A DNA stretch of 64,000 nt from an uncultured Clostridium sp. (GTDB lineage Bacteria; Bacillota; Clostridia; Lachnospirales; Lachnospiraceae): positions 29,801 through 93,800 of the forward strand of contig CANRZB010000008.1 in assembly GCA_947644195.1 (NCBI GenBank), read 5' to 3'. The notes beneath the pieces are model-generated. The model made no database searches. It had not been told where the DNA came from and worked only from the letters and a program-made list of their open reading frames with translations. The translations under genes were made by a program, and so were the position numbers. This document shows positions 33,166 through 60,362 of this stretch, in pieces. The first letter of the stretch is position 1. Each line of letters begins with the position of its first letter.

Positions 33166-34743
33166 TCAGTTTCTATCCAGCTCAAACCAGAATTCCACGC
33201 CGTCCTTATGGTTCATGACACCACAGTCCTGATTCATGGAGTCCACAATCGCTTTGACTATGGATAAGCCGATTCCGCTGCCGCCATACTCTCTGGTTCT
33301 CGCCTTATCCACTTTATAAAATTTAATCCAGATCTTGTCGAGTTCCTCCTCCGGAATAGGCTGTCCGGTATTAAAGACGCTGATACGAAGCTTATCCGCC
33401 TGCTGCTCTACCGCCACCTCAATTCTCCTGTCCCCCTCCACATGATTGATCGCATTACTGATATAATTGGTAATCACTTCCTCCACCATGTACTCATCCG
33501 CCCAGACATACGCAGAACCAAAATCTTCGAATAAGGTAATTCTCGCATCTTTCTGCTCTGCCAGCAGAGTGGCAGACTGGATGACTGACCGGATCACCTG
33601 AATGATATCAAAACGTTCAAAATTAACCTGCTCTTTACCAAATTCGATCTGATTCAGCGTCAGCAGTTTTTTTACCATCTTATTCATTTTATTTGCTTCG
33701 TCAATGATAACTTCACAATAAAATTCCCGACTTTCCTGATCATCGGAGATATTGTCCTGCAATCCCTCCGCATAGCCCTGGATTAAAGCGATCGGCGTCT
33801 TCAATTCATGGGAGACATTGGATAAAAATTCTTTCCGCATTTCATCAATCTGAATCTTATTTTCAATATCATTTTGCAGCTCATTATTCGCCGCCTTTAA
33901 TTCAGAAATCGTAGATTCCAACTTCTCAGACAATACATTGATGCTGTTCCCCAACACGCCAATCTCATCCCCGGTCTCTACCGGATAACGAACTTCAAAG
34001 TTGAGGTCTGCCATCTGTTTCGCAATGTCCGCAATCTGCAGAATCGGTCTGGTCAGGCTGTTTCCTACACACACCATCAGAACCATTGCCACCAGCAAGG
34101 CACCCATCGCAACATATCCCATAAATCGGTTAAAAATCTGCACATTTTCTTTCATACTCTGAAAATTGGTACGAAGATAGACAAATTCTCCCGAATCAAG
34201 CTGCCCGAACAACTCAATATAATTGGAACCGATACGGTCGTCCATAACCTTGTAAACAGAAAACCCATTTCCCCGCTGAATCAATTCCTTATCGCCTTTT
34301 TGATCAGAAGACCAATTTCCCAGATTTACCCCCGGAACATACTCTCTTGTCATATCCTCAATAATCCGTCCTTGTTCCTCTGTAATAACGTTTTCATTCG
34401 GATAATCAAAGGAATAAAATATTTTATCCAAAAAATTAGTTAATTGAAAAATATAGATACTCGTCGCACGGTCTTCCTCTAATTTTTCCAGGTATAGGGT
34501 GCTCTTGGACATGAATTCAGAATTTGCTTCTTTCTCCTGGTATTTTTGGTCCTCCGCTACGATCTTCCCTACCTGCGCATAGGAATCCCGCAGCATAGAT
34601 ACCTTTTTTAGCTGATAGAAATGCGGCAGAAACGCATAGTTCGTCACACAAAAGGTAATGATAGTCAGTCCCAGAATAAAAATCATCGCCAGAATCAGCT
34701 TCATCCGAATAGAGGAGGTATAGTATTTAAAATATCGTTTCAC
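33166..34743 (-). CDS. HAMP-containing sensor histidine kinase
   Basis: HAMP region, H-box FLSNVSHELKTPIALIQGYAEGL, G-box YGGSGIGLSIVKAIVDSM. Confidence 0.93.
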   Translation of the reverse strand: MKRYFKYYTSSIRMKLILAMIFILGLTIITFCVTNYAFLPHFYQLKKVSMLRDSYAQVGKIVAEDQKYQEKEANSEFMSKSTLYLEKLEEDRATSIYIFQLTNFLDKIFYSFDYPNENVITEEQGRIIEDMTREYVPGVNLGNWSSDQKGDKELIQRGNGFSVYKVMDDRIGSNYIELFGQLDSGEFVYLRTNFQSMKENVQIFNRFMGYVAMGALLVAMVLMVCVGNSLTRPILQIADIAKQMADLNFEVRYPVETGDEIGVLGNSINVLSEKLESTISELKAANNELQNDIENKIQIDEMRKEFLSNVSHELKTPIALIQGYAEGLQDNISDDQESREFYCEVIIDEANKMNKMVKKLLTLNQIEFGKEQVNFERFDIIQVIRSVIQSATLLAEQKDARITLFEDFGSAYVWADEYMVEEVITNYISNAINHVEGDRRIEVAVEQQADKLRISVFNTGQPIPEEELDKIWIKFYKVDKARTREYGGSGIGLSIVKAIVDSMNQDCGVMNHKDGVEFWFELDRN

Positions 34744-34754
34744 CGGACTCTCCT

Positions 34755-35426
34755 TTATACTTCAAACTTGTAACCCATTCCCCAGATTGTCTTGATATAT
34801 TCTCCTTTATCTCCCAGCTTGCTCCGCAACTTCTTCACATGGGTATCAATCGTTCTGGCATCACCAAAATAATCATAGTTCCACACATGGTTCAAGATAC
34901 GTTCGCGGGATAGAGCAACCCCCTGGTTTGTCATAAAATACGTCAATAGTTCGAATTCCTTGAAACTTAAGTCAACCCTGCTGCCGTCAATCATAACTTC
35001 ATGTGCTGCCTGGTTGATGGTAATCCCTCCATTACTGATCACATCATCCTCGACAACACTGGTACGCCGGAGAATCGCTTCCACCCTGGCAACCAGAATT
35101 TTCGGGCTGAACGGTTTGGAGATATATTCATCCACCCCCAGTTCAAATCCCGTCAGTTCGTCTTTTTCATCTGACTTTGCAGTCAGCATAATAATCGGCA
35201 CCTGCGAATACTGGCGGATCTCCTTGCATACCTCCCAGCCATTCATCTTAGGCATCATCACGTCCAGGATAATCAATGCAATATCCTTCTGCTCATAAAA
35301 AAGATCAACGGCATCCTCCCCATTCTCTGCCTCTACGACTTCATAATTTTTTTTCATCAGGAAATCCCGGACCAGTTTTCTCATTCTCTGCTCATCATCC
35401 ACCACTAAAATTTTTAATCGCTCCAT
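34755..35426 (-). CDS. OmpR/PhoB-family response regulator
   Basis: ILVVDDEQRMRKLVRDFL...LDVMMPKMNGWE; winged-helix C-terminus; 11 bp from partner kinase. Confidence 0.94.
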   Translation of the reverse strand: MERLKILVVDDEQRMRKLVRDFLMKKNYEVVEAENGEDAVDLFYEQKDIALIILDVMMPKMNGWEVCKEIRQYSQVPIIMLTAKSDEKDELTGFELGVDEYISKPFSPKILVARVEAILRRTSVVEDDVISNGGITINQAAHEVMIDGSRVDLSFKEFELLTYFMTNQGVALSRERILNHVWNYDYFGDARTIDTHVKKLRSKLGDKGEYIKTIWGMGYKFEV

Positions 35427-35521: not shown

Positions 35522-35573
35522 GTGTACGATATCATTGACCATAGTATACGATAAAAATATGTAGAAAGTGTGA

Positions 35574-36188: not shown

Positions 36189-37415
36189 CTATTCTTCCGT
36201 TGTAAATTCTGCATGCTCTGCAATCCAGTTTTTCACTACCGTCTGCAATGCCGTTTCCTCTAAATAAGCACGGTCTGCCTTTTCATATTCCTCCTTAGAA
36301 TCATATGCTTCCGAATTATATGCATATTCCTCTTCTACAATCTCAGCATATTCCTCTTTTGTATAATTAATTTCCTCTTTTGCCGCAATCGCACGCACGA
36401 CCAACTGCTCCTTAACGGTATCCTGCGCCAGCTCTGTCAGATCCTGGTCAATGAAATCCTGTTCATTCTCCCTGCCAAACGACTGGAATATTTCATCATG
36501 ACTCATTCCATATAAATCCGCCATATCATAGTATTCCTGTAATACTCTGTCTTTGGCAGCTTTTAGCATATTTTCCGGATAAGCCTTTACTTTACTGCCA
36601 TCCAAAACATCGGACCAGGAGTATTCCGATTTTTCTGCTTCATATTCAGAAGCAAGCTCCTGTTTGAGATATGCATTATACTCATCTGTTGTCTGATGTT
36701 CGCCATCCGAAATGGATTTTACAAAATCATCATTGTACTCCGGCATAATCTCATCCCCACAGATATATTTTACCGTAGCCTTAAATGTAACCCGTTTGCC
36801 ATCAACGGATGCCTCCTCATAGGTGTCCTCCGGTACATCCACATCAAAGGAAAATTCCTTCCCTGTCTCTGCCCCGATAAAGGCTTCGGAAAATCCCTCC
36901 AGCCAATCATCGGTACCAATCTCAATATAATCACTGTCACTGGTTTCCTCTACCTTCTTGCCATCCACATATCCGGCAAAATCGGCATAGATCATATCAC
37001 CATCCTGTACCGTTCCCTTTTTCTGCTCATAGGTAACATTCTCCTCCAGCAAGCTCTCCACCTCTGCCTGGATATCCTCTTTGGTCACGGCTATGGATAC
37101 CTTGATCCCTTTGTATTGTCCCAATTCTACACAATCCTGTACATCATACTTACCGGAAATCGTCTTGGTGCTGAAATCATTCTGGTCCTTGGATTCCTTA
37201 TTTCCCTGGTTCTTCATAACGATCGCCATAATCAGCACGCCGAGCAGGGCACCCACGACAAAAACGCCTCCCACAAGGATTGTCTCTCTCTTCGATAACG
37301 GAAAACCCGATTTCCGTTTTTTCTTCTGTTTCTGGTTATCCTGCTGATTCTGGTTTCCCTGTTTTGTTTGCTCCATATCGTTATTTTCCACTCCTCCATG
37401 GTTTGATGTACTCAT
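36189..37415 (-). CDS. Membrane-anchored trigger-factor-like FKBP-type peptidyl-prolyl isomerase
   Basis: N-terminal TM (ETILVGGVFVVGALLGVLIMAIVM); FKBP-like GDMIYADFAGYVDGKKVEETSDSDYIEIGTDDWLEGFSEAFIGAETG; trigger factor C-terminal-like helices. Confidence 0.8.
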   Translation of the reverse strand: MSTSNHGGVENNDMEQTKQGNQNQQDNQKQKKKRKSGFPLSKRETILVGGVFVVGALLGVLIMAIVMKNQGNKESKDQNDFSTKTISGKYDVQDCVELGQYKGIKVSIAVTKEDIQAEVESLLEENVTYEQKKGTVQDGDMIYADFAGYVDGKKVEETSDSDYIEIGTDDWLEGFSEAFIGAETGKEFSFDVDVPEDTYEEASVDGKRVTFKATVKYICGDEIMPEYNDDFVKSISDGEHQTTDEYNAYLKQELASEYEAEKSEYSWSDVLDGSKVKAYPENMLKAAKDRVLQEYYDMADLYGMSHDEIFQSFGRENEQDFIDQDLTELAQDTVKEQLVVRAIAAKEEINYTKEEYAEIVEEEYAYNSEAYDSKEEYEKADRAYLEETALQTVVKNWIAEHAEFTTEE

Positions 37416-37546: not shown

Positions 37547-38218
37547 TCAAAGTGCTTCGGAACGTTCAAAAAACTGAAACAATTCCTCCATATTTTGAAC
37601 AATATAATCCGCTCCGGCTGCTTCCAGTTCTCCCGGTTCCGCAAATCCATAGTATACACCTAACGAAGCAATCCCGCACTGCGCTGCTCCGAAGATATCC
37701 ATTTTACGATCTCCCACCATCAGCACCCGGTTCTTGCGTTCCTCTGTAATCTGAAACCTCCGCAGCGCCTCGCGGATAACGTCTTCCTTGTTGTCGCGGG
37801 AGCCATCCATGGTCGCACCAGTGGTATCATTAAAATAGGAAAGCAAACCAAAATGCTCTATGATCCGTATGGCCATTTCCTCCGGTTTGGAAGTCGCCAG
37901 AGAAATCTTTTTACCCTGCTGCTGTAACAATGCCAAAACCCGGTCAATTCCAGTATAAGCTCTTGCCTCAAATAATCCGGTCGTCTGGTATCTCTCCCGA
38001 TATTTATCCCGAAACCACTCTGCCTCCTCCCTGGTCATTCCGAGGATTTCCTGAAACCCGATAACCAAAGGCGGACCGATAAACTGTAACAAAACCTGTC
38101 TTTCCGGCACCGGACGGCCTCCTGCTTGCAATGCATATTCAATGCATCGCAGAATTCCCTGACTGGAATCTGTAATCGTGCCATCCAGATCAAATAAAAC
38201 ATATTCAAAATCTGTCAT
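37547..38218 (-). CDS. HAD hydrolase, phosphoglycolate-phosphatase-like
   Basis: FEYVLFDLDGTITDSSQGI...MVGDRKMDIFGA HAD motifs; start trimmed to 38218. Confidence 0.88.
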   Translation of the reverse strand: MTDFEYVLFDLDGTITDSSQGILRCIEYALQAGGRPVPERQVLLQFIGPPLVIGFQEILGMTREEAEWFRDKYRERYQTTGLFEARAYTGIDRVLALLQQQGKKISLATSKPEEMAIRIIEHFGLLSYFNDTTGATMDGSRDNKEDVIREALRRFQITEERKNRVLMVGDRKMDIFGAAQCGIASLGVYYGFAEPGELEAAGADYIVQNMEELFQFFERSEAL

Positions 38219-38316
38219 GCATCCACTCCTATGTTTCATTACCAATACAGCAATCGTATTCCTTATACTGCACTAGTTTCTTCTATCTATGTATATACAT
38301 TACCCTATTTTCATTT

Positions 38317-38415
38317 AAAAAACAAGAAGAGCCTCGAACGGCTCTTCCTGTCGGATAACTCTCGTTATCCAGCGTATAATAGGGTGGGAGTAGAAAGTTT
38401 TCACTTTCTGAATTC
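38317..38415 (-). ncRNA. Candidate small RNA or 5' leader with three hairpins and an intrinsic terminator
   Basis: - strand: AGAAAGT/ACTTTCT hairpin, unpaired ACTCCCACCCTATTATACGCT, GGATAAC-GAGA-GTTATCC hairpin, GAAGAGCC/GGCTCTTC terminator stem followed by TTGTTTTTT. Confidence 0.5.
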
Positions 38416-38520
38416 AAGTATAACGATTAATTGTGTTTAAATTGTGTTTAAATGAAGTTGTTTTTATCAATCCTTTATCCAAAATTACATTTTGATAAAA
38501 AATATGATATTTTTTTCTCT

Positions 38521-38536
38521 TTTTCGACAAAAAACG
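38521..38536 (-). promoter_or_regulatory. Candidate Spo0A box (TTTTTTGTCGAAAAA)
   Basis: Contains exact TGTCGAA core in A/T context, ~300 bp upstream of gdhA. Confidence 0.4.
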
Positions 38537-38824
38537 CCTCCGCTAAGTATTACTAGTGTTTCTATGCGGTATTCCTCTCCCTCTTTTTTCAATTTTCAAA
38601 ACATTTTCTCTGTTTTGATTGCATTGATTTTCAGTATCAATGCATACACGAATACAATCAATCACGGTATATTTGTATTTTTTTAGTGATTTTGCCTAAA
38701 AAAAATCAAAAAAAATATTGAAATTCTACAAATAATATGCAATACTGATACTGTTAGTGATTTCGTACTCAGAACGAATCCTCTGTAACAATCAAATAAA
38801 TCAATTTATGAAGGAGGTTTTTGA

Positions 38825-40180
<1,356 letters not shown>

Positions 40181-59630: not shown

Positions 59631-60362
59631 CTAAGCCTCTTCCCAATTATGGTAAACATATTGGACATCATCATCTTCTTCTAACAAATCCAAAGTTCGT
59701 TGTAACTGCTTGATATCATTATCATCTGACAATGTAACATAGGTCTGTGGCAACATTGTGACCTCTGCACTGACCATCGGTATATTTGCTTCCTCCAGAG
59801 CTGTATGTACCACACCAAAATCCGACGGCGCTGTCGTAATTTCAAAGGAATCATCCTCTTCCACAAAATCCTCTGCTCCGGCATCCAGTGCAGTCATCAT
59901 CAGATCATCTGCCTCCATGCTACATTCTTCCTTGTCAATAATGATCTGCCCCTTTTCGTCGAACATATAGGATACGCAGCCCTGCGTCCCAACACTGCCG
60001 CTGCCCTTGGTAAAAGCATTACGCACATTGCTGGCAGTACGGTTTTTATTGTCCGTCAATGCCTTGACAATAATCGCGGTTCCACTGGGGCCATATCCCT
60101 CGTAGGTGACTTCCTCATAGTTGACCGCATCCATATTTCCTGCGGCTTTCTTAATTCCGCGCTCAATGGTATCGTTCGGCATATTATTTGCCTTTGCCTT
60201 GGCAATCACATCCCGGAGTTTTCCGTTATTATCGGGATCCGGTCCGCCCTCTTTGACGGCAACAGCGATCTCACGCCCCAAAATAGTAAAAATCTTTCCC
60301 TTGGCGGCGTCATTTTTTTCTTTCTTATGTTTAATGTTTGAAAATTTTGAATGTCCTGACAT
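59631..60362 (-). CDS. YebC/PmpR family DNA-binding regulator / translation factor
   Basis: [40 protein letters not shown]; start at 60362. Confidence 0.95.

Follow-up and report, generated by a model that had tools for sequence, protein, structure and literature searches.

In the enterobacteria, the envelope-stress sRNAs CpxQ, MicA and RybB belong to a regulon that also includes the HtrA/DegP protease. Promoters activated by OmpR-family regulators carry phased direct repeats in place of the -35 element. In Bacillus and Streptomyces, the regulator and sensor kinase of the CssRS system activate htrA-family genes (PMC12802291). Firmicute sRNAs use unpaired C-rich segments to block ribosome-binding sites, for example that of ppnKB in the case of RoxS, an sRNA activated by the response regulator ResD; FsrA and CsfG are C-rich sRNAs of Bacillus that also have unpaired C-rich regions (PMC4409812). 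Lachnospiraceae are among the commonest gut bacteria, and their small RNAs are almost undescribed in the literature searched. No comparable sRNA appears, judged by title and abstract, in the literature searched on secretion stress and HtrA in Bacillus, and the papers listed for the linker sequence were all unrelated. Because of its 200-bp size cut-off, the start-site map of C. phytofermentans would hardly show such an RNA.

The window, i.e. the whole 64-kb stretch of DNA analysed here, contains an unannotated small RNA gene of ~95 nt that is conserved over dozens of Lachnospiraceae genera. With a probability of roughly two in three, it is an independent gene for a trans-acting C-rich sRNA that belongs to an HtrA stress regulon activated by an OmpR-type regulator and pairs with ribosome-binding sites. 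The gene and its promoter consist of the following parts:

38317-38410, - strand: small RNA gene, ~95 nt, with the 5' end placed from the -10 position and the 3' end at the T-run; recognized by sharp-edged conservation in 25 of 28 same-genus genomes and a fold z of -6.2
38392-38409, - strand: hairpin 1, AGAAAGT-GAAA-ACTTTCT; recognized by pairing of the 3' arm and by arm replacements that preserve pairing
38371-38391, - strand: unpaired C-rich linker, the proposed seed, ACUCCCACCCUAUUAUACGCU; near-invariant in 97 copies that are <90% alike, median unpaired probability 0.94
38353-38370, - strand: hairpin 2, GGATAAC-GAGA-GTTATCC; missing in some genera, with two-sided changes at 4 pairs within the genus
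38317-38352, - strand: intrinsic terminator hairpin and T-run (stem 38352-38321, T-run 38322-38317)
38417-38422, - strand: -10 element TATACT, a TATAAT-like hexamer conserved in 137 upstream regions
38432-38470, - strand: regulator box of up to four 11-nt-phased direct repeats, without a -35 hexamer; recognized from the family logo and as the best promoter-matrix match in the window

A preliminary description of this DNA had claimed three - strand hairpins, an unpaired C-rich linker between the first two, an intrinsic terminator, and a gdhA gene on the opposite strand. All are present. The hairpins occupy 38409-38317, the linker reads ACTCCCACCCTATTATACGCT at 38391-38371 (-), the terminator is the sole one detected in 38150-38850 (0.2 expected by chance), and gdhA (38828-40180, +) is divergent from the RNA gene. 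The fold of the RNA (38412-38313) has an energy of -38.1 kcal/mol (z = -6.2), and none of 200 shuffles was equally stable. A HAD gene in the same orientation starts ~100 nt downstream of the RNA. The whole promoter, at 38470-38417 immediately upstream of the RNA, had been overlooked. The RNA appears to have its own promoter and intrinsic terminator, as a trans-acting sRNA would, rather than to be part of a UTR. Gene, structure, terminator, conservation and common box are all evident in the DNA, and the gene is presumably transcribed.

One of the closest known counterparts is RsaE/RoxS of Staphylococcus and Bacillus, which can pair with Shine-Dalgarno sequences through an exposed C-rich segment and is under the OmpR-family two-component system ResDE/SrrAB (PMC4409812); the RNA described here has such a segment, and its box looks OmpR-type. 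It differs in having one bipartite CCC-A-CCC segment, whereas RsaE/RoxS has four C-rich regions, and in its apparent regulon (HtrA), which suggests a regulator other than ResD/SrrA. The RsaE/RoxS covariance model (RF01820) scored 16.7 bits on the window RNA, against a gathering threshold of 79, and failed to match any of 20 additional loci from other genera, so that the comparison with RsaE/RoxS drawn in the preliminary description is good as a working analogy but not as family membership. The Rfam scan that it had recommended gave no family at the gathering threshold, either for the RNA in the window or for 20 relatives from other genera. FsrA and CsfG are Fur-controlled or sporulation-linked, and the RNA has no Rfam match to either. 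Like CpxQ, MicA and RybB, it would be the RNA arm of an envelope-stress regulon with an HtrA/DegP protease; unlike CpxQ, which arises by 3' UTR processing, it has its own promoter, and unlike all three it occurs in a Gram-positive lineage without an outer membrane and has no Rfam match. The candidate two-component system described below resembles CssRS/HtrA in its apparent tie to htrA-family genes, but its kinase and regulator fall below all curated equivalogue cut-offs listed and its box consists of phased repeats. The RNA is a new sRNA family outside Rfam, which probably works like the C-rich sRNAs controlled by two-component systems and is not an RsaE member by the family threshold.

A 141-nt query covering the region found one copy in each of the 25 matching same-genus genomes, with homology extending from a few bases past the -10 element to the T-run. 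Hairpin 1 and the linker are almost without change in 24 aligned copies. Compensatory change is seen in hairpin 2 and the terminator, where 10 pairs are altered on both sides. The covariation analysis proposed in the preliminary description bore out the helices: 98.8% of cells pair, compared with 43-56% in slid controls, and 0 of 500 shuffles did as well. Beyond the genus, a covariance model matched 30 of 397 family genomes; two of these matches (L047 and L054) were rejected by eye as terminators of unrelated genes. An exact 15-mer is present in 30 of 397 family genomes, and a 27-nt core, allowing up to 3 mismatches, in 26 of 299 genomes with 0 control matches. A scan of named genomes found at least 119 contigs with the RNA core, nearly all from Lachnospiraceae. 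The carriers among the matches listed include Butyribacter, Lachnoclostridium phytofermentans, Anaerocolumna, Herbinix, Velocimicrobium, Anaeromicropila and others. A phylum-wide sample of 398 genomes contained no carrier besides the window's own genome, and plasmid and phage record collections gave 0 matches. A match in Chitinophaga appears fortuitous: the remainder of the RNA is missing there. As far as tested, the RNA family is confined to Lachnospiraceae. On one contig titled Anaerolineaceae MAG4 (SHOH01000064.1) the sRNA stands among genes arranged as in Lachnospiraceae, and the contig is probably mis-binned.

The anatomy was compared across 131 distinct copies, 97 of them <90% alike. These copies were gathered by a 14-nt linker string, whose invariance is therefore by construction; the conservation past the string, CUUUCU on the 5' side and AUAC on the 3' side, is not, and the homology and covariance-model searches ran without requiring the string. 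The linker is unpaired in these copies (the median of 0.94 given above), at least 5 nt of the hairpin 1 3' arm are paired in 128 of the 131, and a foldable terminator (-8 kcal/mol or lower) precedes the T-run in 120. The near-invariant portion of the linker is ACUCCCACCCUAUUA; the flanking hairpins covary or are swapped. In some genera the hairpin 1 arms are replaced wholesale (GUAGUUAC/GUAACUAC, GAGGAUA/UAUCCUC) with pairing preserved. Tandem duplicates of the gene occur in L095 (5630 and 5825), L111 (502 and 726) and L151 (2397 and 2720); in L095 and L151 every copy has its own upstream repeats.

When 137 upstream regions were aligned at the -10 element, repeats appeared at -48, -37, -26 and -15 from its first base. 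The two proximal repeats of the family logo are GACACA-like and strong, the repeats end 10 nt ahead of TATAAT, and there is no -35. The promoter in the window has the same form: the promoter-proximal ACACA repeats (38447-38443 and 38436-38432) are strong and the two distal ones weak. Scores above the 99th percentile of background were obtained for 111 of 136 sRNA promoters. Over the 64-kb window, the sRNA promoter is the top match to the promoter matrix with a score of 26.7, followed by matches at 20.1 and 12.8. A loose match to the box pattern at 59761 (-), absent from the matrix-scan matches, lies 280 nt before a 1496-residue surface-protein-like frame. A different recurring direct-repeat site (ACATAT..ACACAC), found before similar transporter-like genes in two same-genus genomes (L219 and L220), probably belongs to another regulator.

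The genes sharing the box were identified by an unbiased search for the proximal repeat pair plus -10 in 24 carrier genomes from other genera, with the reversed pattern as control. Among the matches listed there were 30 sites, versus 3 for the reversed pattern. Ten of the 30 are the sRNA itself and 20 precede other genes, including nine HtrA-like proteases, four VTC-domain proteins, one cyclophilin lipoprotein and one orthologous response regulator. Pfam was tested on one member per protein group; for HtrA this was a protein of the same cluster from within the genus. Within the genus, the box was found at four HtrA-like genes and one regulator gene among the loci listed. When the promoter matrix was run over 1.2 Mb of Butyribacter intestini, its best match was the sRNA (31.4), followed by a secreted protein and then an HtrA-like protein. 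A regulator site is common to the sRNA, htrA and the two-component operon, as in an HtrA/CssRS-type regulon, and these sequences argue strongly that the sRNA belongs to an HtrA-type envelope/secretion-stress regulon. Because the promoter has the same switch as the genes for HtrA, a protease of protein quality control at the surface, an RNA is probably part of how Lachnospiraceae respond to cell-surface damage.

A two-component system 3 kb downstream of the sRNA is the candidate activator:

34755-35426, - strand: OmpR-family response regulator, proposed activator of the sRNA (PF00072 and PF00486); orthologues are 71-84% identical across genera
33166-34743, - strand: sensor histidine kinase of the same system (HAMP, HisKA, HATPase_c)
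35543-35573, - strand: box and -10 before the response regulator gene (TCACA-N6-ACATA-N9-TATACT); promoter-matrix score 20.1, second-best in the window

The response regulator has a receiver and a winged-helix domain, and its gene, preceded by the box, is proposed to be autoregulated. Neither it nor the kinase scored above cut-off against curated equivalogues among the matches listed. In 20 of 29 orthologous loci, the region upstream of the regulator scores no lower than the 97th background percentile, a figure that is somewhat generous because the background is mostly coding DNA. The box is missing before several orthologues, and it is present in non-carriers of the sRNA too. Of the top 30 genomes by similarity of the kinase sensor domain, 22 carry the sRNA, compared with 28 of 299 overall, an association confounded by relatedness. 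Since carrier genomes encode further OmpR-family regulators, another of these could bind the box; the one most likely to act there is that at 34755-35426. It is unlikely, though the best placed of the alternatives, that a different OmpR-family regulator (PhoP/PhoB-like or ResD-like) controls the C-rich trans-acting sRNA in a phosphate or redox response, with the HtrA link a coincidence of shared motifs. The repeat architecture does resemble Pho and ResD sites in general, the VTC-domain genes behind the box could hint at phosphate, and the best-scoring curated model for the response regulator is PhoB, albeit below cut-off. On the other hand, of the 20 box sites listed that are not the sRNA, 9 lie before HtrA, more than before any other gene, no phosphate-transport operon is among the box sites listed, and the local regulator gene is itself preceded by the box. 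The pstS model TIGR02136 had no match in the window's own genome, which left no such gene for a direct comparison with phosphate control.

For the identity of the regulator, the inducing signal, the mode of base pairing and the targets, we infer the following scheme, in which the sRNA belongs to the HtrA-type regulon. Failed protein folding at the cell surface, a signal suggested by the regulon, would be the trigger. The OmpR-type response regulator would bind the phased repeats that stand in for the -35 element and switch on together the sRNA, its own operon, the HtrA protease, the cyclophilin-type foldase and the VTC-domain genes. The exposed near-invariant linker ACUCCCACCC would then pair with G-rich ribosome-binding sites, and the pairing would block translation, probably reducing the synthesis of exported or membrane proteins. 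By analogy with other Firmicute C-rich sRNAs, the linker should block ribosome-binding sites here as well. If true, these Gram-positive bacteria would have a post-transcriptional arm to their envelope-stress response, like the enterobacteria.

The target prediction with the linker suggested in the preliminary description yielded no convincing target. A search for GGGTGGGRG before ATG in 28 genomes found mostly chance sites inside genes, and no orthologous target recurred. Duplex prediction covered a third of one genome (983 genes) and gave 46 strong partners, whereas shuffled linkers averaged 89; secreted proteins were not in excess. The reading as a trans-acting C-rich sRNA, one of two offered originally, is upheld by the independent gene, its own promoter and terminator, the near-invariant unpaired linker and the varying neighbours, but not by target prediction. 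The negative prediction also speaks for an unlikely alternative, that the conserved RNA works by binding a protein, as a sponge or co-factor, instead of pairing with mRNA; conservation of the core is unusually high and long for a pairing seed and includes the 3' arm of hairpin 1. However, the near-invariant part is single-stranded and C-rich, which is the form of the known Firmicutes sRNAs that pair with Shine-Dalgarno sequences (PMC4409812), and no repeated protein-binding motif was seen. A 15-nt single-stranded core that is near-invariant over dozens of genera raises the question of which partner keeps it so constant. Since its gene, promoter and candidate regulator are defined and some of its hosts are in culture (Butyribacter intestini and Lachnoclostridium phytofermentans), the sRNA is open to direct testing.

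Within the genus, the RNA lies between the divergent gdhA and a HAD or trigger-factor-like gene, which in most of the genomes follows it in the same orientation. This arrangement fits the other original reading, a riboswitch or attenuator ahead of the HAD phosphatase gene, which synteny makes very improbable: the HAD gene follows the RNA just in the window's genus and close relatives, and no downstream same-strand gene is conserved. In other genera the RNA has different neighbours, among them alr, rlmH and the genes for a CNNM-type protein and a threonine/serine exporter (names read from sequence alone); the downstream gene changes between genera and is mostly on the opposite strand, 50 of 78 scorable copies outside the genus having a divergent gene upstream and a convergent one downstream. 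The varying, mostly opposite-strand neighbours indicate an independent gene. Furthermore, the terminator is strong, with no visible antiterminator, and the most conserved segment of the RNA is unpaired. Least probable of all is a small peptide gene: a frame, GTG AAA ACT TTC ... TAA, runs open through the RNA in the window, but it has no ribosome-binding site ahead of it, linker third positions show no variation, and the start-like codons of homologues fall in each of the three frames with respect to the linker, a frame variation on which this reading was rejected. Downstream of the sRNA, 36189-37415 (-) encodes an apparently membrane-anchored protein with a trigger-factor-like C-terminal part and a weak FKBP domain, possibly an exported foldase in keeping with the envelope theme.

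A broader reading is held tentatively, at somewhat less than even odds: throughout Lachnospiraceae the sRNA would supply the RNA arm of an envelope/secretion-stress response in a Gram-positive lineage; it would be analogous to the sigma-E/Cpx sRNAs of the enterobacteria but independently evolved, and copied by prophages that use a box-less promoter. The sRNA core is also found immediately after prophage endolysin genes, in L391 (7498-8240) and L135 (5419-6110), Velocimicrobium porci. The holin and endolysin genes beside them were identified by PHROGs, and the copies have their own terminator and lack the stress-regulator box. Prophages may carry the host sRNA as a decoupled copy. One of the contigs bearing such a copy is in IMG/VR.
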